DNA of 28,520 nucleotides from a virus, in the IMG/VR virus record IMGVR_UViG_3300045825_000283, positions 1 to 28,520 of that record; one strand, given 5' to 3'. The translations under genes and the position numbers were made by a program. Each line of letters begins with the position of its first letter. Position 1 is the stretch's first letter. Below the pieces are notes generated by a model. The model ran no database searches and was not told the DNA's origin. It saw only the letters and a list, made by a program, of their open reading frames with translations. Positions 1 through 17,427 of this stretch are shown here, piece after piece.

Positions 1-2392
1 AGCCTTGTGTTATTTTCCCTTCCGACACTCGACCATTTTTAATTCCAAGCGCTCTATTCCTTGCCGAATTTATTTGAGCGAGTTCGTCTGGGTTTTTGGT
101 CATTAACTTCGGATTAATCTTGAGCGGGTCATCTGTCCACTGCTTATCAACGACATCCTGCATGCCGAAAGCATTTGGAGCAGTTGCGACTCGCCCGCCT
201 GTGATGTTGAAAATAGCTTTGCGATATTCTTCATCGTTTGCTTTTTTATCTTGCAACTTTTGAAATTCTTTAGGATTTTTATCGAATACCCAAAGCACTG
301 CGTCTCGCACGGCGTTGGTTGCGCCAGTCAAGTCAGTCGACATTTTTGTGACGGCGTTCTCTACGTCCTTCACATTGTTGCGCGTGGATGTGCCAATATC
401 GACAAGCTCTTTGTCTTTCGCAAGATTGAGCAGCGCTCCCTTCAACGCATCCGCACCGCCGGGTTCTTTCGCCCCGGCCTGTTTTGCTAACAGATTGTCT
501 TTTTCCTCTTTTGACAAAGAACCAAAATCACCTTTCAGAAAACTTGCTGAAAAGTCATTCAATCCTTTATCGTCGCTTCCCAATATTGAAGCAAGCGTCA
601 TGTGCTTAGAAGCGCCAACCTTGGACATATTAATTTTGTATTTGTCCATCAGCGTTTTCGACATTCCGCCGATACTTCCTGATTTTTGCCATGCAGTGTC
701 GAACCCACGAAATTCCTGCTGACTCAATCCGGTTATGGTCGCACCGCCCATTTCATATTCGGATGTTCCCGGCTTGGCCCATCTTTGAAGCTCAAGCATC
801 TGTAAATCGACATTGGCGCGGTCGCTGTTCGGGTTGGCTTTTATTGCGCGAGCTACTTTTTTCCTGCTTTCTGGCACTCTTGGATCATCGATCAATTGCT
901 GCATGGCATTACGAGCCGAGCCGTTTGCTCCTTGAGATTTGATCAATCCAATCTCCAGCGCCCCCATTCCGGTGCCTTTGAATGCGTTTTGAAAAGCCGC
1001 CAATTGCATATTGTTTGTTGCTTCGCTGCCGTTGCCACGGAATGCCGAGTCCACCCTTCCCATGATTGAAGCTGCACCCTGCACATCCATGCCGGGCATG
1101 CCTGAACTATTCAGGTTAGACATCATCCCAGCGTAACCGGCGATATTCGGCGCAGCCACCAGAGACTGCCGTGCAGCCGTTGATGCGAAGTTGGTCACGG
1201 CAGACAGCAATTCTCCGGCCTTGGAACCCAGCCCGCCCTTTTCAATCGCCTCAGCCATGACCATGCTCATGCGCTTTGTGTCGCCACCGTCCGCCTTGAA
1301 CTGGCGCATCGTGGCCATGAAACTGACACCCTGAGACGGATCAAGCCCAAGAGACCGAGCGAAACCGGTTGAATTGTTGATATCGCCGGAAAGCCCCTTG
1401 CCGCCCATCGAGCCGGAGATTTGTGTGAACTCACGCGAGAGTTTAAGGGACTCGGCATAGGTCAGCCCCATCCCTGTCGCGGCGGCCCGCGTAGAGGCGC
1501 GTAATGACTCGAAATCAACCCTTACGCCACCCAGTGAGCGGCGCAGATCGGCAACTCCAGAGGATTCAGTCTCGGCACCACCGAGCGCATTCCCAATACC
1601 GCCGCCAAGCGCTCCGCCGAGGGCAGAACCGGCCACCATACCCAGCGGGCCACCCAGCATGCCAAGGCCACCACCAAGGATCGAGCCAATCGAACCAACA
1701 ACGCTGCCACCCGTCCCGCCGACCATCATAGAGCCAAGCGCCCCACCAGCGGCCCCGGCCATCATGTAACCCTTACCACCCCAGCGGCTGGATTGTGGTT
1801 TTTCGACTCCTGCGTTTTGCAGGATGCGTGAGAGCGCATTCTTGCGGGCATTCTGCTCTACCGCATTCCCGCTCTTGTCTCCAAGGACGTCGGCGAAGCT
1901 GCCATGTTGGACATAGGCCGAAGATGCACCACCACCAGACCGCATGCGGGAGTGAGCGCGGGAGATTGCATCAACCTGCGTCTCCGAATACGAGCGCCCC
2001 ATCGCACGAAGGGCTTCCTGCTGCTTCTTGATTTCAGCCGTGGCCAGCTTGGTCTTTGAGGCCAGCCGCTCCATCGATGTCTCGGCCTTGGACTTACCCT
2101 GCCCACCGTTGGTTAGTTCCTTGACGGACTGGGATATGGCATTGCGAACATTATTGAGCTGCTTCTCGGCATCGCTGGTATCGACGCCGAGCTTTTTCTT
2201 GTCCTCTATCAGCTTTTTGAACGCATCGGCAGACTGCCGTGCAGACTTCATGCGATTTTCAAACTCGCCGGTCTCGACAGTCAGGTGCCCACCAGTGAGG
2301 GAAGACTGAAGCGCCTCGGCGTTCTTTTGCGCGCTTTGAAGCGCAGAATTCAGGTCTCCTACGTCTGCGCCGACTTCAATCTTGATGCCCAT
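1..2392 (-). CDS. Tail tape measure protein (3' end outside window)
   Basis: This reading frame starts with ATG at 2392, just after the stop of the frameshifted tail chaperone, and stays open to the left edge. About 797 residues are visible and the C-terminus is missing. The first ~190 residues are charged and helical, as expected of a tail-length ruler. Residues ~208-272 form a glycine/alanine/methionine-rich hydrophobic stretch with repeated small-x-x-x-small spacing, typical of the membrane-active part of tape measure proteins. The rest is alpha-helical with no recognised enzymatic domain in the visible part. Position directly after the G/T chaperone pair is the standard place for this gene. 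In the family, the protein sets tail length, is bound by the chaperones during assembly, and is ejected ahead of the DNA. Function rests on context and composition rather than on a catalytic motif. Confidence 0.88.
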   Translation of the reverse strand, partial: MGIKIEVGADVGDLNSALQSAQKNAEALQSSLTGGHLTVETGEFENRMKSARQSADAFKKLIEDKKKLGVDTSDAEKQLNNVRNAISQSVKELTNGGQGKSKAETSMERLASKTKLATAEIKKQQEALRAMGRSYSETQVDAISRAHSRMRSGGGASSAYVQHGSFADVLGDKSGNAVEQNARKNALSRILQNAGVEKPQSSRWGGKGYMMAGAAGGALGSMMVGGTGGSVVGSIGSILGGGLGMLGGPLGMVAGSALGGALGGGIGNALGGAETESSGVADLRRSLGGVRVDFESLRASTRAAATGMGLTYAESLKLSREFTQISGSMGGKGLSGDINNSTGFARSLGLDPSQGVSFMATMRQFKADGGDTKRMSMVMAEAIEKGGLGSKAGELLSAVTNFASTAARQSLVAAPNIAGYAGMMSNLNSSGMPGMDVQGAASIMGRVDSAFRGNGSEATNNMQLAAFQNAFKGTGMGALEIGLIKSQGANGSARNAMQQLIDDPRVPESRKKVARAIKANPNSDRANVDLQMLELQRWAKPGTSEYEMGGATITGLSQQEFRGFDTAWQKSGSIGGMSKTLMDKYKINMSKVGASKHMTLASILGSDDKGLNDFSASFLKGDFGSLSKEEKDNLLAKQAGAKEPGGADALKGALLNLAKDKELVDIGTSTRNNVKDVENAVTKMSTDLTGATNAVRDAVLWVFDKNPKEFQKLQDKKANDEEYRKAIFNITGGRVATAPNAFGMQDVVDKQWTDDPLKINPKLMTKNPDELAQINSARNRALGIKNGRVSEGKITQG

Positions 2393-2650
2393 TTAGATCA
2401 CCTTTTCCCAGTCGTCCGATTCCATCAGTTCAGCAATTGACTCGGCATTAAATTCTTCATCTTCGCTGCTGTCCGTCGCAGGGTTGGCAGTGAAGTGGTG
2501 CGCCCAGAATTCAGTCTCAATTTCCTCTGGGGTCAAACTAAGGAAGCGCGGGTCGTTCGGGGTGAGATTGTATTTCTGCCGGAACCAGAATGAGTAGGTT
2601 CCGACAAGTTCCCGTCCTTTACGCCTTGCTTGCGACTTTCGCCGCGACTC
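2393..2650 (-). CDS. Tail assembly chaperone, T-type frameshift extension
   Basis: An open frame of 85 codons follows the end of the G-type gene and ends with TAA directly before the tape measure ATG. It has no ATG, GTG or TTG near its beginning, so it is not expected to be started independently. From residue ~17 of the extension it reads ELVGTYSFWFRQKYNLTPND, followed by an acidic tail ending ESDDWEKVI. Aromatic and polar motifs like this are common in the second tail chaperone of contractile and long non-contractile tails. It lies +1 relative to the upstream gene, so a +1 (or -2) slip near codon 100 would give a fusion of about 185 residues. In the family, the fusion coats the tape measure protein and recruits tube subunits, and is absent from the finished virion. 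Confidence 0.8.
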   Translation of the reverse strand, partial: ESRRKSQARRKGRELVGTYSFWFRQKYNLTPNDPRFLSLTPEEIETEFWAHHFTANPATDSSEDEEFNAESIAELMESDDWEKVI

Positions 2651-2951
2651 GAAAAGAGTCCTCCTTTTCTGTGAGCAGGTTTGAAAGCTCTACCACTTGC
2701 AAACCTTTACTGTCGTCCAGCGCGGTCAGGTCTTCCCATCCAGCAGGGCAGGACACGCAAAGCACGCTGTGCGCAGCCGTGATTCCAGCAAAGAAGCTCA
2801 GTTCTTTGTCCGCTTCTTCGTCCTCGCCTTGCAGGTAGCGCAGGTACACCACGCGAATCTTCATCATGTCGCCAATGGTGCGGCGTGCGTAAACGAAGTC
2901 ACCAACATCAGGTAGCGGGATCGTGAAGTCTGTAGCGGATGGTTCTCTCAT
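2619..2951 (-). CDS. Tail assembly chaperone, G-type (110 aa)
   Basis: This 110-residue protein begins with ATG at 2951, preceded by AGGAGA seven bases upstream. It lies between the tail tube gene and the tape measure gene, the fixed position of the major tail chaperone (lambda gpG-like). It contains the acidic segment LQGEDEEADKELSFF and two cysteines (VLCVSCPAG). It terminates at TAA in frame 0. A second frame continues without an independent start, which gives the classic G/GT arrangement. A small fraction of ribosomes would make the longer GT fusion. It is probably cytoplasmic and acts only during assembly. The call rests on context and on the downstream frame; residue-level similarity to known G proteins is not obvious. 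Confidence 0.8.
   Translation of the reverse strand: MREPSATDFTIPLPDVGDFVYARRTIGDMMKIRVVYLRYLQGEDEEADKELSFFAGITAAHSVLCVSCPAGWEDLTALDDSKGLQVVELSNLLTEKEDSFRVAAKVASKA
2648..2669 (-). promoter_or_regulatory. Candidate programmed +1 (or -2) frameshift site with SD-like stimulator
   Basis: On the minus strand the sequence reads AAGGAGGA, four bases, then UUU CGA in frame 0 (codons 100-101 of the G-type gene). A tRNA-Phe on UUU could slip one base forward onto UUC, while CGA is a slowly decoded codon in many bacteria. The strong Shine-Dalgarno-like AAGGAGGA serves no start codon in either frame, and resembles the internal stimulator of the prfB +1 shift. Slipping here joins the frame that encodes the T-type extension. 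A -2 slip on the U-run would reach the same frame. Confidence 0.6.
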
Positions 2952-3020: not shown

Positions 3021-3446
3021 TTAAGCGCCCTTGCCGGATACATCCAGAGCCTTGAATACGGCGCTAGACACGATGATTGCATGTTTGCGAACGTGAACAC
3101 TTCCGCTGTCATACGAGCAGCCGATGTACTTGCGCAGGGTGGCACCGGAGTCCTTATCCACTGTCAGGATGTCGAAAACAACACCTCGCAGGGCATCGTC
3201 TCCATTCTCAAAGGTTAACCCAAGAGTGCGTAGATTACCGAGGCGAAGTACCATTTCCTCGATATTTATCGAGTGGGTTGCCATCGTAGGTACGTGTTCT
3301 TGTACGTGAATATCGCCGATGCCCGATGCACTTTCCAACGAATAGCTGTCACTCATGTCAACGGACTGAGCCATGCCGACCACATTACCGTCCAGCATGA
3401 CAACGTGGCGGTTACCGGACTTTACTTTCAAATTCTGTTGAGCCAT
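3021..3446 (-). CDS. Tail tube protein (141 aa)
   Basis: This is the gene directly downstream of the tail sheath, the usual place of the tube protein in contractile tails. It encodes 141 residues, in the size range of myophage tube proteins, with a beta-rich pattern. Segments such as NRHVVMLDGN and an internal HVQEHVPTMATHSINIEEMV stretch alternate polar and hydrophobic residues, as in the tube beta-barrel. The ATG at 3446 is preceded by AAAGGAAA. Tube subunits stack as hexamers inside the sheath and form the channel for DNA. The terminator immediately downstream separates this highly expressed gene from the low-copy chaperone and tape measure genes. No enzymatic residues are expected or seen. 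The identity follows mainly from order and size. Confidence 0.82.
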   Translation of the reverse strand: MAQQNLKVKSGNRHVVMLDGNVVGMAQSVDMSDSYSLESASGIGDIHVQEHVPTMATHSINIEEMVLRLGNLRTLGLTFENGDDALRGVVFDILTVDKDSGATLRKYIGCSYDSGSVHVRKHAIIVSSAVFKALDVSGKGA

Positions 3447-3477: not shown

Positions 3478-5196
3478 TTAAACCGTCGCAGTGCCGGAAT
3501 ACGGTACAGCGTGGATCGTGCAAAGAATGAAGTTCTGCGGGATTCCGGGGCTGCACTCGAACTCAACGCTGGTCACGTCACCAGCGACCGACACGGTGAT
3601 GTTCTTGTAAGCAGGGCTGTTCGCATCACCGACCAGAATACCAAGACCGGCAGGGACAGGTTTAGCCAGAGCGCGCAAGGATGTATCAGCAGCCTCGAAC
3701 ACTTCCGTCAGGTACGTCGGGCTTCCGTTCTTGCCGCGCAGCGCATCAACAGCCTCACGCACAGTGCGAGACACGTAATCCATCGCCGCACCAGTCGAAG
3801 CCTCGACTCGGTTGTAGTTCTTGTTGTTCAGCCATGTGGTGCAAGACTTGACGACCTTGTAAACGCCGTTCACGTTCTCGACAGCCATCACGCCACCAGC
3901 AACAAGCGGATCAGTGTCGGTCGGATTGCGCAGATCAACCTCCATGCCTTTTGCTTTGATGGACTTGTTGGTCAGGGCGGTACCGGGTGTGACACCAGAC
4001 AGCATACCGGCCAGTTGAGCAGCAACGATATAAGGTGGCAGCAATACCAGCGTGCCGTTCAAGTCATAGTCGCGTTCGCCGAAGCCAACATACGACACAC
4101 GGTCGCTGTTCAGCGCAGCAGCAGCTGCGACAGCACCAGCAACAGTTCCACCAGAAGCACCGCCGCACACAGCGCGGCGCTCTTTGCGGGCAATGTCGGA
4201 CATGAACGATACATGCGTCGAAGTCATCGCGTGAATCGATGCATCGCTGGTGACGGGGCTTACCCACTGGCAGTCCTGAGTTTGCAGGACGGTGAAGGCG
4301 TTTGTCCACTGGGTGTTTGTAACCGTTCCATCCGTACCGCCAGCCAGATATGTAAAGGCGATATTTGCAGGAAGCGTCCCAACGCTCGCGGCGCGAGTCG
4401 CTGTAACGAAACCCTCACTCGTACCGTTGATCCAGTCAATAACGGCCTGCAGGTTTGCGGTCACGGTGTACAGGGCGGTTTTCACGTCCTGAGTGATTGC
4501 CACGGTGTCCAGAGAATTCAAAGTGGCGTCGTTGCCGTTGCCATTGAGAACGACAGCAGCGAAGCTGGCAACAGCATTGATACGGTCGACCAGTTTCTGC
4601 ACGGTGTTGTAGGTCGCCAAGTCCAGACTTGCAACCTGAGTACCAGCCGGAGCTTGAAGCACCAGAATCGTGTTGTTGATCGACATCACTGCGGTAGCTT
4701 GAACGCCGCCGTACTGGATGCTGAATTGCGAAGAAGCGATGTTGTCTTGACTGAAATAGCTGTTGCCAAGCTGGGTGGTAACCTTTTTACCGGATACCGT
4801 GCCGGACTCGATTTTGACTTTGATCGCATTGGTGTACAGGCCGTAGTCGGTCGATACTAGATTGATCACGGGCGCAGCCAACGAATCAAGCAGCGCCAAG
4901 GAAGCCTGCACGGCAGGGTTCACGCGGACAGCGATAATCTTGGAAGGTGCCGGAGTCTCAGAACTCGGGTCGAATGCTTTCTGGATCGCGGTCAGCAATT
5001 CCCCGGAGCGCAGAACCAATGCAGCCTCGGTCGCATTGCTGAATGCGATAGCGGAGTTCGGAATGCCACCTTCGGACTGCCCGATCAAGGCAAGCGTATT
5101 TCCGCCTTGAGGGTTTCTGTTTGCCATTGCCGAGTCATCGACTTGGCTGGCGGTGGTTGGGGTGGTGTACAGGCGACCGGCAAAAAAGACAGACAT
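3478..5196 (-). CDS. Tail sheath protein (572 aa)
   Basis: This 572-residue protein has the layout of contractile tail sheath proteins: a variable N-terminal half followed by a conserved C-terminal domain. The C-terminal half contains the segment LPPYIVAAQLAGMLSGVTPG, matching the conserved helix and loop after the sheath core strand, then the terminal region TVREAVDALRG and a strand-rich end. The start at 5196 has a strong AAGGAG eight bases upstream. In the family, sheath rings surround the tube and contract to drive it through the host envelope. Its presence shows myovirus-type morphology. The tube gene follows 31 bases later and a small unknown protein precedes it. The N-terminal half is rich in Ala, Thr, Val and Asn, and may carry exposed decoration domains. 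Confidence 0.92.
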   Translation of the reverse strand: MSVFFAGRLYTTPTTASQVDDSAMANRNPQGGNTLALIGQSEGGIPNSAIAFSNATEAALVLRSGELLTAIQKAFDPSSETPAPSKIIAVRVNPAVQASLALLDSLAAPVINLVSTDYGLYTNAIKVKIESGTVSGKKVTTQLGNSYFSQDNIASSQFSIQYGGVQATAVMSINNTILVLQAPAGTQVASLDLATYNTVQKLVDRINAVASFAAVVLNGNGNDATLNSLDTVAITQDVKTALYTVTANLQAVIDWINGTSEGFVTATRAASVGTLPANIAFTYLAGGTDGTVTNTQWTNAFTVLQTQDCQWVSPVTSDASIHAMTSTHVSFMSDIARKERRAVCGGASGGTVAGAVAAAAALNSDRVSYVGFGERDYDLNGTLVLLPPYIVAAQLAGMLSGVTPGTALTNKSIKAKGMEVDLRNPTDTDPLVAGGVMAVENVNGVYKVVKSCTTWLNNKNYNRVEASTGAAMDYVSRTVREAVDALRGKNGSPTYLTEVFEAADTSLRALAKPVPAGLGILVGDANSPAYKNITVSVAGDVTSVEFECSPGIPQNFILCTIHAVPYSGTATV

Positions 5197-12238: not shown

Positions 12239-12470
12239 TCGCCCCAACGCGTTTGTGCCCGAGGCGAATAACGTCCTCAAGGTGTGCGCGCTCTTGGATT
12301 AGGTCGAGGTATTCGTGCCCAAGTTCATCATCAGTCACGGCCATCGGGCGCAGTTCTTCGATGCGTTTGCGCACGACTTCCATGCGCGCCACGGCGGTAG
12401 AGAGGATTTTCTTCTCGGAGGTTTCTGTCTTGGCGGAGAGAGCGGACAGATCGCCCATGAGTTTATGCAT
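12219..12470 (-). CDS. Small coiled-coil protein (about 83 aa)
   Basis: The ATG at 12470 is favoured because AGGA lies eight bases upstream; an ATG at 12479 is also in frame. The start overlaps the end of the large helicase gene, and the end overlaps the protease start, so it is tightly coupled to both. The protein is nearly all helix. Residues ~10-75 have heptad-type spacing (LSTAVARMEVVRKRIEELRP; HEYLDLIQERAHLEDVIRLG). I do not recognise the family. Small helical proteins next to the protease and scaffold can act in capsid assembly or cargo binding. Its location between the polyvalent protein and the protease suggests a link to packaging that protein into the head, but nothing in the sequence proves this. 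Confidence 0.65.
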   Translation of the reverse strand: MHKLMGDLSALSAKTETSEKKILSTAVARMEVVRKRIEELRPMAVTDDELGHEYLDLIQERAHLEDVIRLGHKRVGANADQKS

Positions 12471-15400
12471 TGGCTTCATCCTGTGCGAATTTCTGTTTCA
12501 AGTGCCACGCCAAGCCGCTGTCGTCCAAACCCTCCATCGAGGACGTCATCAGCTCGCGCAGCCCATACTTGCGTTTCAGCCGGTCGCGCGCCTTCGAGAT
12601 TGACGGGTGCTCGGCAACCAGATCAGCCAATTCGATGTCGTTCTTTTGTCCAGTGCGGTTGATACGGCCCTGCCTTTGGCCGTGGGTCATGGCCGTGTCC
12701 GGTGTATCCATCTGCACCTCCCACTGCCCGCGCTGCAGGTTCATCCCAGTAGCACCAGCATCCGACGCAATCATAATGTCGGCAGAAGCCTCGCCTGTCT
12801 CGGGGTTGAATTCCAACTTCTTCTTGTCTTTGTCTTGAGTCGAGTCGGCGCCTGTAAGGGTAACAACGCGGTGCCCTTCCTTCTCCAGCCGCGCCTTGAG
12901 TTGGTCGACCGACTGAAGACTGTGGGCGAAAATTACCCCCGGCTTGCCGCGCCGAGCATTGGCGTAGGTGGCGGCCATATCCAGCAGGGCGCCTTCTGGG
13001 TGGGTATGAATGATCCGCTTGGTAGCCGCATTCTTGATCAGCCCTATGGACTTCTGCAGCGCGCGGGCGACATCCTCAACCTTGTCGTCCGGCACGCCTT
13101 CGAACCGTTCCGGCGAGAGGCGCTTCATCGCGTCGACGGCCAGCGTGCCGTTCATCTTGGCAATGCGAACCTCGGAAACGTCCTTGTCCAGCTGCGCCAG
13201 CGCCGCGTTTTGCTTGTCGTTCAGCTTCACATTCACGGTCTGGCGGTCGGCCTTCACATCCGGATCGATGCGGGAAGCGTAGACATAGCGGGCCATTTCG
13301 CGCTTGAGTGCGTCCTTGGCCGCCACGGTATCGCCGCCGTACTTGCGCATGAAGGCCGCGCGGTCGGTGTAACGACTCCTGTCCATCTTCGCCAGCATAT
13401 CGAATGCCTCGGATGCGTCGTTCTTTACCGGATCGCCGGAAGATGGCATGAAGTACTCGGCGTTATCGGAGAAAGCGTCCGAGACGTTCGCCAGCCCAGA
13501 GTTCTCCTTGCCTTCCCGATTGAGGGTGTACTGGCTCTCGTCAACCGACATATAGTCGAAGTTGAAGCCTTCGGTATCCGAAACGGACTTTGCCCATTCC
13601 TTACGCTGCTCGGGTTTCATCTTCTGCAGCCGGTCGGACATTTCAGATTCGGATACCCCTGCATGCTTGGCGCCAAGGTGGATCATGTCGTCGCGGAAAG
13701 ATTGGTGTGTGGCCATCACCATATGGGTGGCAGGATCGCGGTACGCAGCAAGACGTTCTTCTCGGGACGCACCCGGCTCGGCGTGAACTTTGTATTTACC
13801 GGGTTCGAGGTAGCGCACAGCCTCGCCGCCGAATTGTCCTTGAACAATGGATGGACAGAGCACCAATCCGCGATTGACCTTACCTTTGCCGTGCAGATGC
13901 GTAAACCCAGCCATTTGCAAAAGGCTCTTGCCGGAGCCGGTACCGAAGGCCGCCACAACGCGTTTGTTGGATTCCAGCAGTTTGATCAGCCGCTGCCGCG
14001 CGAAGTTCTTGCCACCAGACATCGACGCATTCCAGAGCTTTGCCGGTTTGCCCGGGCGAAAGTTCTGCCCGACCACAGACATCATGCCTGCAATCTTCTG
14101 CTCGGCAGCCTGCCCGATGGTGTACCGCTCGTCCGCGCCCAGCGGTTTATCAGCCGGAGCGTCCTCGGTCGAGAAGAATCCCATCTGCGACTGGTCGAAT
14201 GCTTCCTTTTCCTGTTGGGCCGCGTCGAGTTTGTCCTTCACCGAGCCGGAGGCGTACTTTCCGCCAGACCGTTCGCGCATGGAGTCGAGCAGTTCTTTCT
14301 CTTTGGCCGTGCGCGCTTCCCGAGCGGCAGGGTCAACCGCGTCCAGATGGTCGAGACTGTTGCGGATCGTCGTCCGGCCAAGTTTTAGAGGGGCGTCTGG
14401 ATGCAGCGTATTATAAGTATCGGAAAACTTGTGCGAGATGTGCGAGCGCACCAAGTCCTGTACGGATTCGACGGCCTTCTCGTTCGACCCCAACATTTCA
14501 ACGTACCGACCCCAACTCAGACCGGCGGAATTGACCTGTTCAGCCATCGCGTCGCGCTTGCTTTTCCAGTCCTGCCACTCGGGGTTTGTGGATTCTTCAC
14601 CGAACAGGTCGAGCGCCTTCTGTTCCGGCTCATTGGCCGCGTGTGCTTCCAGAGTCGCGCGCAGTTCTGCCGCCTTCGGGTCTTCCTTGGCGACGTTGGC
14701 GTGCCACCAGTTGCGCAGGCCGCTGCGCTCCTTGGCGGACAAGTCGCCTATCGGTTTGAACGCTGAAACGCCTTCAGGTGTCTCGGCCAGCGCGCGGTGC
14801 AGGGAGTCGACCGACTTCTGGGTAACCTCGAACGATTGCTTGTGGATGGGGGAGCGGGTACCGCCGTACTGGCTCTGGGTGTAGTCGTCAGCCATCGTCT
14901 CCCACGAATCACGCAGGGTTTCGATGGGCTTCATTTTCCCGTCTTCGCCCTTGAGTGGAGCAACCGCATCCAAAGCATCCCGGTACGACGCCGGATCGCC
15001 AGCCTTGGCAAAGAAGTCGGCAGAATGCACGTCGGCCAGAATATCCCGAGGCTCATCCCCGTCCGCCATGCGCCCGCCAATGTAATCCTGCAGCGATTGT
15101 TTCAGGTCACCGGAAGGCGCGAATGGCTTGGAAATGCGCTCGGCAACCCCCGGCTGCACGCTCATGGACAGGTCTGGCCGGTTCGCAATGCCGATTGGCA
15201 GCCAGCCGTCCTCGTCCTGAGACCCTTCCATAATGTCCAGATTACGCCGGACTTGCGCCATACCAGCGCGGTCGATTGGCTTTGCCAGCCGATCCATGCC
15301 ATCACCCTTGATATTGGCGACCAATTGACCACCCACGGCGGACAGTTCGAAGTCGCCCGGCTGCAGCCCGATGGCGCGAAGCTGGATAACGGCCTGTTCC

Positions 15401-17427
15401 GGCTTTACCATGCCGAGGTTCACCTCGAGATGGTCGGCCTTGCCATTCAGGGCGCTCACCAGCGCCGCGTTGCCCTGCATTTCCCCCATTGCCTGTCCTA
15501 GCACGCGCTGCCCTTCAGCAACGGCCTGACGGCGCTTGTCGTTCGCCGCTTGGGCAATCAGCAGGTCGGCCCCATTCTCGGCGTCCGGCAGTTCAATGGC
15601 GGCAGCCGCGTCGTAGAATTCCTTGGCGCTGGACACAGCCTCCTGCTGCTTCTTTTCGTACTGTTCCACATGGAACTCGCCCATTGCGTCGCGTACCTTG
15701 TCGGCGTCGGCGCCCATATCGGCCTGAATGCGGCGGGCCAGCACTTGAGCAGCCCCAGAGACCCCGAGCACGTCCACCACGGAACGGTCGATCAATCCAT
15801 CACCGCCCACAACCTGTGAGAAGGAATTCAGCGCGTTGAAAGCCCCAGCACCGATGTGCCCGGCCAGCTTCGACTCCCCACCGGCAGCGTCGGCAGCGCG
15901 CAGGAAGGCGCGGGTACCGGAAGTCCGGACGTCTTCCTCCATCTGCTTGCGGGCCGATTCTTCAATATCTGCGTCGGAAACGTCGATGATCTGGGCTTTG
16001 GACTCTACAACCTTGGCCGTGTCCAACGCTTTCGAGGCGTCGCGTGCCTGCATTTCAGCAATCCGGAGCCGCTTCTGCAGCTTGAGCATGGTCGCGGCTT
16101 TTTGCGCATCGGTCAGGACTTTGACGCTCGGGGGTGGGGTGTCGGGGTTTTCCAGACGGAAGGCCGCAAGTTCCTCGGCAATCGCCTGCTTGTGGTCGTC
16201 CTTGGTCTCGGGGATGGGCTTATTCTCCGGATCAACCGGCTTGCCCATCGCCACGTTCGCCTCGGCCTTGGCTGATTCCTTGTCGATTCCCGCGCGGTTG
16301 GTATAGTCGGCATTGAAGCCCAGCTTTGCGCCGGTCACTTCCGGTAGGGGAGCGAGGTCGTTAACCGACAGGGTACCGGCGTCGTTCGTTTCCAGCGGAA
16401 TCAGCCCAAGTCCGGACGCGGCCCGTGCACCGGCATCCTCCACCAGCACGCGCCGGTTCAGTTCGACCGTGTCCTTTGCGCGCTTGAACAGCGCCGTGGT
16501 GTGCTCTTTCCGTGCAGATTCCAGTGCGGCAGGGGAGAGACCGGCATGGGCAGCCTCGTCGAACTCCAAGTCCTTCGGCTCCCAGCCAGCCAGTTCTGCA
16601 ACCCCATGCACGAAGTTGTCGCGCTCGGTTTGCATGGCGGCCTTGAGTTTGCCGCGCTCTGCCTGCTTGGCATCGTGGACGCCCAGTTCTTTGTCCTTGG
16701 CGATTTGATCCTTGCGGGCGAGTTGGCGCTCTTGGTGCTTTTCTGACAATTCCTGACGGTACGATGATTGCGGCTTCACGCCGCGCAGCTTGAGGTGGTT
16801 CAGTTTGCCACCGGCACCGCCGATGACTGACGCAGTCCCGTCTGGATGCTCAGTGATGAGGATCGGGACGCCCTTCGAGCCTTCCCCATTTGGATGAACT
16901 GTCAGCCACCTTTCTCCGGGGCCGAGGGATTTGAACAGCAATTCATCCCCAACAATCAGCGCCCCATCAGCCGCAGCAACCCGCACCTTAAAGTCGTCCA
17001 CAGGCATGACCAGCACATCCCCAAGGAAGCGCTCGTCGTCGTAGTGCAGCATGAACACGCCGATGGCTTCCTCGGCGTTGTCGAACCCAAGCATGACCTT
17101 CTGCTCGTCGTCTTCGGTAAATTCAGGGGGGCGGCGGGTGGTGATGACGTAGGCCAGAGCAGCATTCTCGTCTGGGCCGAGGAAACAGTCTACATGATCA
17201 CCGTCCGTGCCGAGTGTCGTTTTTCCGAGACTTCGTTTAATGTACCCATAGTCGAAGTGCATGCGCGATTCCCAGCGCTTGCCAGAAGGATCGACGCCAC
17301 GGCGAACGGTACCAGAAGGATTCTCGATTGAGATATCCATACCGGCGAACCGCAGCTTTTTCTTTTTGTAGTTTCCGGCCCTGAGTTGCGGGTCGGTAGG
17401 TTCGTGAGAATGTCGGAATAGATGCAT
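12463..17427 (-). CDS. Polyvalent protein: InPase-like domain plus SNF2-type helicase (1654 aa)
   Basis: This is the largest gene in the window. Residues ~25-155 resemble family I inorganic pyrophosphatases, with the acidic cluster GTDGDHVDCFLGP at 73-85 (D75, D77, D80). Such domains are known in phage polyvalent proteins (InPase, PF18823). Residues ~175-210 form a small beta segment (VIGGAGGKLNHLKLRGV). Residues ~215-1090 are mostly helical, probably several unrecognised domains. The C-terminal third is an SF2 helicase of the SNF2 type: Walker A GTGSGKS at 1162-1168, DESQ box II at 1296-1299, SSGDPVKN near 1330, DAGATGMNLQ near 1555 and QRQGRINRTGQ at 1584-1594. In such proteins, domains are often injected with phage DNA and counter host defences. 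Location among the head genes supports virion packaging, but that is inference. Confidence 0.88.
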   Translation of the reverse strand: MHLFRHSHEPTDPQLRAGNYKKKKLRFAGMDISIENPSGTVRRGVDPSGKRWESRMHFDYGYIKRSLGKTTLGTDGDHVDCFLGPDENAALAYVITTRRPPEFTEDDEQKVMLGFDNAEEAIGVFMLHYDDERFLGDVLVMPVDDFKVRVAAADGALIVGDELLFKSLGPGERWLTVHPNGEGSKGVPILITEHPDGTASVIGGAGGKLNHLKLRGVKPQSSYRQELSEKHQERQLARKDQIAKDKELGVHDAKQAERGKLKAAMQTERDNFVHGVAELAGWEPKDLEFDEAAHAGLSPAALESARKEHTTALFKRAKDTVELNRRVLVEDAGARAASGLGLIPLETNDAGTLSVNDLAPLPEVTGAKLGFNADYTNRAGIDKESAKAEANVAMGKPVDPENKPIPETKDDHKQAIAEELAAFRLENPDTPPPSVKVLTDAQKAATMLKLQKRLRIAEMQARDASKALDTAKVVESKAQIIDVSDADIEESARKQMEEDVRTSGTRAFLRAADAAGGESKLAGHIGAGAFNALNSFSQVVGGDGLIDRSVVDVLGVSGAAQVLARRIQADMGADADKVRDAMGEFHVEQYEKKQQEAVSSAKEFYDAAAAIELPDAENGADLLIAQAANDKRRQAVAEGQRVLGQAMGEMQGNAALVSALNGKADHLEVNLGMVKPEQAVIQLRAIGLQPGDFELSAVGGQLVANIKGDGMDRLAKPIDRAGMAQVRRNLDIMEGSQDEDGWLPIGIANRPDLSMSVQPGVAERISKPFAPSGDLKQSLQDYIGGRMADGDEPRDILADVHSADFFAKAGDPASYRDALDAVAPLKGEDGKMKPIETLRDSWETMADDYTQSQYGGTRSPIHKQSFEVTQKSVDSLHRALAETPEGVSAFKPIGDLSAKERSGLRNWWHANVAKEDPKAAELRATLEAHAANEPEQKALDLFGEESTNPEWQDWKSKRDAMAEQVNSAGLSWGRYVEMLGSNEKAVESVQDLVRSHISHKFSDTYNTLHPDAPLKLGRTTIRNSLDHLDAVDPAAREARTAKEKELLDSMRERSGGKYASGSVKDKLDAAQQEKEAFDQSQMGFFSTEDAPADKPLGADERYTIGQAAEQKIAGMMSVVGQNFRPGKPAKLWNASMSGGKNFARQRLIKLLESNKRVVAAFGTGSGKSLLQMAGFTHLHGKGKVNRGLVLCPSIVQGQFGGEAVRYLEPGKYKVHAEPGASREERLAAYRDPATHMVMATHQSFRDDMIHLGAKHAGVSESEMSDRLQKMKPEQRKEWAKSVSDTEGFNFDYMSVDESQYTLNREGKENSGLANVSDAFSDNAEYFMPSSGDPVKNDASEAFDMLAKMDRSRYTDRAAFMRKYGGDTVAAKDALKREMARYVYASRIDPDVKADRQTVNVKLNDKQNAALAQLDKDVSEVRIAKMNGTLAVDAMKRLSPERFEGVPDDKVEDVARALQKSIGLIKNAATKRIIHTHPEGALLDMAATYANARRGKPGVIFAHSLQSVDQLKARLEKEGHRVVTLTGADSTQDKDKKKLEFNPETGEASADIMIASDAGATGMNLQRGQWEVQMDTPDTAMTHGQRQGRINRTGQKNDIELADLVAEHPSISKARDRLKRKYGLRELMTSSMEGLDDSGLAWHLKQKFAQDEANA

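Follow-up and report, generated by a model that had tools for sequence, protein, structure and literature searches.

In lambda, the tail assembly chaperone G is accompanied by a minority extended form, GT, which arises by a -1 shift. Shifts of +1 are also known among tail chaperones and are not new, since such a slip is annotated in the records of SPO1 (for gp10.2-gp11.1) and Adastra, HSTV-2 has been called very likely +1 in a review (PMC5009743), and the training set of PRFect holds 350 forward cases (PMC10274946). They have been reported for HSTV-2 and for a minority of SEA-PHAGES genomes; the phage K record annotates a frameshift protein. One +1 site occurs in the release factor 2 gene prfB, where CUU_UGA, with a stop codon in the A site and a Shine-Dalgarno (SD) sequence 3 nt away, has an autoregulatory role; 3 nt is the SD spacing given for +1 stimulation (PMC5009743). 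Another, UUU_CGN, is a proven +1 site in influenza A PA-X, with a +1 junction peptide and an influence of the E- and A-site codons (PMC3498833). UUU_CGN has also been proposed as a +1 site in plant amalgaviruses (PMC5052127).

The DNA analyzed here, referred to as the window, is a virus record of 28,520 bases in which the putative chaperone locus is read on the minus strand (Table 1). Two overlapping frames, G and T, lie between the tail tube gene and the presumed tape-measure gene, which is the layout of a G/GT pair; counterparts of the latter ORF are annotated as tape measure in SPO1 (gp11.2) and Adastra. The T frame is +1 (equivalently -2) relative to G, unlike the -1 frame of lambda, to which no sequence link was shown. 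ATG, GTG, and TTG are absent from the T frame of the window from its opening to 28 codons beyond the junction, and its sole Met is near the C terminus. Together with the conserved slip site described below, this points to a second frame that would be joined to G by frameshifting. The T protein matched positions 113-190 of 230 in the tail assembly chaperone profile phrog_25000 (E 5e-6). A preliminary description of the locus had read the T frame as +1 to G with no start codon of its own and its product as a tail chaperone type; both readings stand, all its coordinates were right, and the separate T start that was looked for in the window was not found near the junction. It had also treated +1 as an unusual class, and here only the direction holds, such shifts being already known in the systems named above.

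Table 1. Features of the chaperone locus and neighboring genes in the window.
Feature	Position	Strand	Basis
G-type tail assembly chaperone gene, 110 aa	2619..2951	-	ORF listing; phage homologues; predicted fold
Ends of the G gene	ATG at 2951; TAA at 2621-2619	-	ORF translation
T frame, stop to stop, +1 to G (open 2689-2396, then TAA at 2395-2393)	2393..2689	-	phrog_25000 tail assembly chaperone match
Predicted start of the translated T part, past the slip	2650	-	
Putative slip site UUU_CGA: P-site UUU (Phe codon 100, 2654-2652), A-site CGA (Arg, 2651-2649); UUU to UUC	2649..2654	-	
E-site codon UCU (Ser)	2655..2657	-	UCU/UCC common in relatives
Shine-Dalgarno-like AAGGAGGA	2659..2666	-	anti-SD duplex energy; synonymous codon preference in relatives
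Tail tube (virion structural protein, phrog_985), upstream neighbor	3021..3446	-	named major tail protein/tail tube in relatives
Tail sheath (phrog_279)	3478..5196	-	PHROG match
Downstream ORF, 797 aa, runs off the window; presumed tape-measure protein	2..2392	-	position

Sequence searches of Pfam and PDB with G gave no useful match. The AlphaFold2 model of G, built from a 66-sequence alignment, had a mean pLDDT of 95. The HK97 tail assembly chaperone (2OB9) was tied first in comparisons with this model, at a Z of 4.5 and an rmsd of 3.8 over 87 residues, which is suggestive only. Foldseek found no match to the model in PDB at E 0.001; among its BFVD matches are named tail assembly chaperones, one of them from Bacillus phage JL (E 0.011). 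Another fold match, Rhodococcus phage Finch, was considered as a further family, but its T lies in the -1 frame. Gene order, the SPO1 annotation, and the predicted structures support a chaperone role by analogy with lambda, the likeness being a chaperone with a minority extended form and a role inferred from gene order. By the same analogy, G would coat the tape measure and the T part would recruit tail tube subunits.

A homologous G/T pair was found at more than 100 loci, 82 of them non-redundant, in ~90-kb myophages and prophages of Proteobacteria and in Herelleviridae, including SPO1. In tblastn searches G matched ~90-kb myophages of Pseudomonas, Bordetella, Aeromonas, Enterobacter, and Yersinia; T matched the same phages as well as Morganella and, at a weaker level, Bacillus and Exiguobacterium phages of the SPO1 type. 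With sheath proteins as bait, about 100 loci were drawn from viral and bacterial genome contigs. A T profile search yielded 105, and an overlapping frame with an in-phase TTT C was detected automatically in all but three; inspection of two that had been missed (L071 and L100) revealed the FR/TTTCG junction, and the third (L024) is disrupted by indels. Wherever the pair was intact, the homologous T was in the +1 frame. At least one relative is a prophage, since the locus from Microvirga lupini (L117) is on a chromosome-sized contig of 1.44 Mb.

The G proteins were aligned by profile with no site assumed, and the codon was then read at the Phe100 column, which avoids circularity. This column was TTT in 102 of 103 loci (the lone TTC is in L024; locus counts for the slip site and the SD element ignore shared ancestry). 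Among 79 non-redundant loci it was the only fully conserved codon of G, the runner-up reaching 76%; TTT made up 21-44% of the other Phe columns of G and T in the proteobacterial branch. The base right after UUU at the aligned site was always C. In the A site, CGN was present at 80 of the 82 non-redundant loci (CGC 31, CGA 30, CGT 18, CGG 1) and CAG at two. Two loci, L008 and L111, in which UUU_CAG replaces UUU_CGN at the junction, provide a natural test of the A-site codon. Compared with background CGA was enriched and CGG depleted, a bias that is confounded because the third base of CGN also fixes codon 2 of T. The E-site codon was UCU or UCC in 57 of the 82 loci (57 of the 61 with Ser) and never UCA, AGU, or AGC. 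In four Herelleviridae (phage K, PEf771, Twort, and A511) only ~14 nt separate the opening of the T frame from the G stop, so that a shift is confined to a few codons, and TTT CGN falls inside this gap. The TTT CGN site is also present in Lactobacillus Lb338-1 and Bacillus SBSphiJ5. This comparison with related phages, which had been suggested as a check, argues for the earlier placement of the slip at UUU CGA, with TTT C recurring at the aligned codon in more than 100 homologous loci.

No avoidance of UUU_CGN was seen elsewhere in these genomes, so the motif alone is probably a weak slip signal. RNA structure upstream or downstream of the site was no stronger than in control stretches (mean z near 0, 82 loci).

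Based on these data, G and T are very probably a tail chaperone pair with a +1 slip at UUU CGA that is boosted in this branch by an SD-like element. We infer that most ribosomes would read G and terminate at 2619. In the remainder, tRNA-Phe would move from UUU to UUC, a perfect match, and the slipped ribosomes would resume at GAG, giving a G-T fusion (...Glu-Asp-Ser-Phe-Glu-Ser...). The upstream AAGGAGG would pair with the 16S rRNA tail while UUU enters the P site, which would raise the frequency of the slip in this phage branch; the E-site UCY and A-site CGN codons would also assist.

The SD-like AAGGAGGA had been described as lying four bases before UUU CGA. It is present; UUU follows the last G of AGGAGG (2660) at a distance of 5 nt, or 4 nt when the final A of AAGGAGGA is included. 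The anti-SD duplex at the window site has an energy of -11.6 kcal/mol. Within the proteobacterial-phage branch, Lys at -12 is encoded by AAG 45 times vs. once by AAA, and Glu at -9 by GAG 60 times vs. nine by GAA; these are the most G-skewed of all Lys/Glu columns in G and T, uncorrected for ancestry. An anti-SD energy of -6 or lower was reached by 54 of 72 sites of this branch vs. two of 53 other in-frame TTTCG sites, and the SD occurred together with UCY at 44 of 72 vs. none of 53 (both uncorrected for ancestry). Judged from these codon preferences, the AAGGAG SD-like element is genuine and under synonymous-site selection in phages of the proteobacterial branch. Only two of ten Herelleviridae representatives reach -6; the other eight lack a strong SD yet keep UUU_CGN. 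The pattern among relatives is that of a lineage-specific SD, weak or absent in most Herelleviridae, and of UUU_CGN as the constant part.

The site had been likened to that of prfB, which it does resemble in the +1 direction, in a putative SD-like stimulator just upstream, and in the predicted re-pairing of the P-site tRNA one base on. The likeness fails at the codons, which are UUU and a sense Arg codon (CGA) in place of CUU and a stop, at the spacing, and at the autoregulatory role. A prfB-type site, at which the SD would be the essential driver of the slip, could be argued from the strength and fixed place of AAGGAGG and from the synonymous selection in one branch. We consider it unlikely: the spacing is 5 nt and not the 3 nt given for +1 stimulation (PMC5009743), the A site holds a sense codon, and the site is kept in the eight Herelleviridae representatives with no strong SD. 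By sequence, the UUU_CGN sites of influenza A PA-X and plant amalgaviruses are the closer parallel; they have UUU in the P site and CGN in the A site, as in the phage family (UUU CGA in the window). The E-site UCC matters in PA-X, and the phage family prefers UCC/UCU; no downstream RNA structure was seen in the phage family. These viral sites differ from those of the phages in being used by eukaryotic ribosomes, in unrelated genes, and with no SD. The gp10.2/gp11.1 pair of SPO1 is like that of the window in its homologous T part, gene order, annotated +1, and junction (UCC_UUU_CGU), but it has no strong upstream SD-like element, and its identity to the window proteins is 13% for G and 28% for T.

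It has been assumed in GenBank records of several relatives, including Dolphis, PHB04, ST4, and others, that T is a separate gene starting at an internal ATG, and some T-frame ATG is indeed found near the junction in 47 of the 82 loci. Such a gene is very improbable as the source of T, because no start codon (ATG, GTG, or TTG) exists there in the window or in 20 further loci, the conserved part of T upstream of the internal ATGs would be lost, and the invariant TTT C would be left unexplained. On the +1 reading, several public phage annotations have T broken up or leave it out. Short separate T genes with internal starts are annotated at 3428-3589 in L010, 1961-2131 in L011, 1934-2116 in L012, 1973-2122 in L014, 1952-2134 in L015, 1633-1767 in L016, and 1130-1366 in L120.

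The preliminary description had left the choice between +1 and -2 undecided. A Mu-type -2 shift at the same place, with the ribosome slipping back two bases and inserting an extra Phe (Phe-Phe-Glu), is permitted by the frame alone, and in the window it would pair tRNA-Phe with CUU at two of the three positions. Relatives carry CUU, CCU, GAU, CGU, and others at this position, so that two pairs would form in 32 of the 82 loci, one in the remainder, and three in none; the P-site tRNA would thus not properly re-pair two bases upstream. In influenza A, moreover, UCC_UUU_CGU gave the +1 junction peptide only (PMC3498833). A -2 shift is highly improbable on these grounds. The +1 slip is favored because it is the only re-pairing possible in all relatives, and because the invariant C after UUU is needed by +1 re-pairing alone; on sequence grounds the direction can be regarded as settled.

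A sequencing indel, which had been named as a finding that could overturn the frameshift, or transcriptional slippage could be argued from the U run (UUUU in the window) and from one unannotated record (Bacillus phage phiBsKO1-1, L024) that has lost a T there. Either is scarcely credible, since the identical layout recurs in more than 100 loci from many sources and about 60% of relatives have just three U before C, a run too short for polymerase slippage. The L024 record has indels in G, with one T missing at the slip site, and through them the end of G and T fall in one frame; these are probably read errors.

The +1 frame and a TTT CGC at the G-T junction were also found in the haloarchaeal myoviruses HSTV-2, HRTV-5, HRTV-8, and Hardygib1, whose chaperones share both +1 and UUU_CGN with the window. 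The G protein of HSTV-2, the one compared, has no detectable similarity to the window G family, and these two observations therefore suggest that the UUU_CGN site arose repeatedly. A limited search found no literature linking UUU_CGN to tailed phages, and an earlier report is possible. We tentatively propose, with somewhat less than even confidence, that UUU_CGN is a general +1 site in tailed viruses of bacteria and archaea and in eukaryotic viruses, and that its boost in the proteobacterial-phage branch comes from an SD at 5 nt, a spacing at which +1 stimulation had not been known. Three questions remained from the work on influenza A PA-X: the reason for shifting at UUU_CGN, the part played by the CGN and UCC codons, and the use of comparable motifs outside the eukaryotic viruses in which they were seen. 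A widespread phage family in which this site occurs both with an SD and without one offers natural comparisons on bacterial ribosomes, for which tRNA and ribosome genetics are simple.

Elsewhere in the window, an ORF of 1654 aa (12463-17427, minus strand) matched a large DNA helicase (phrog_62); its N-terminal part is common to several unrelated-looking phage proteins.
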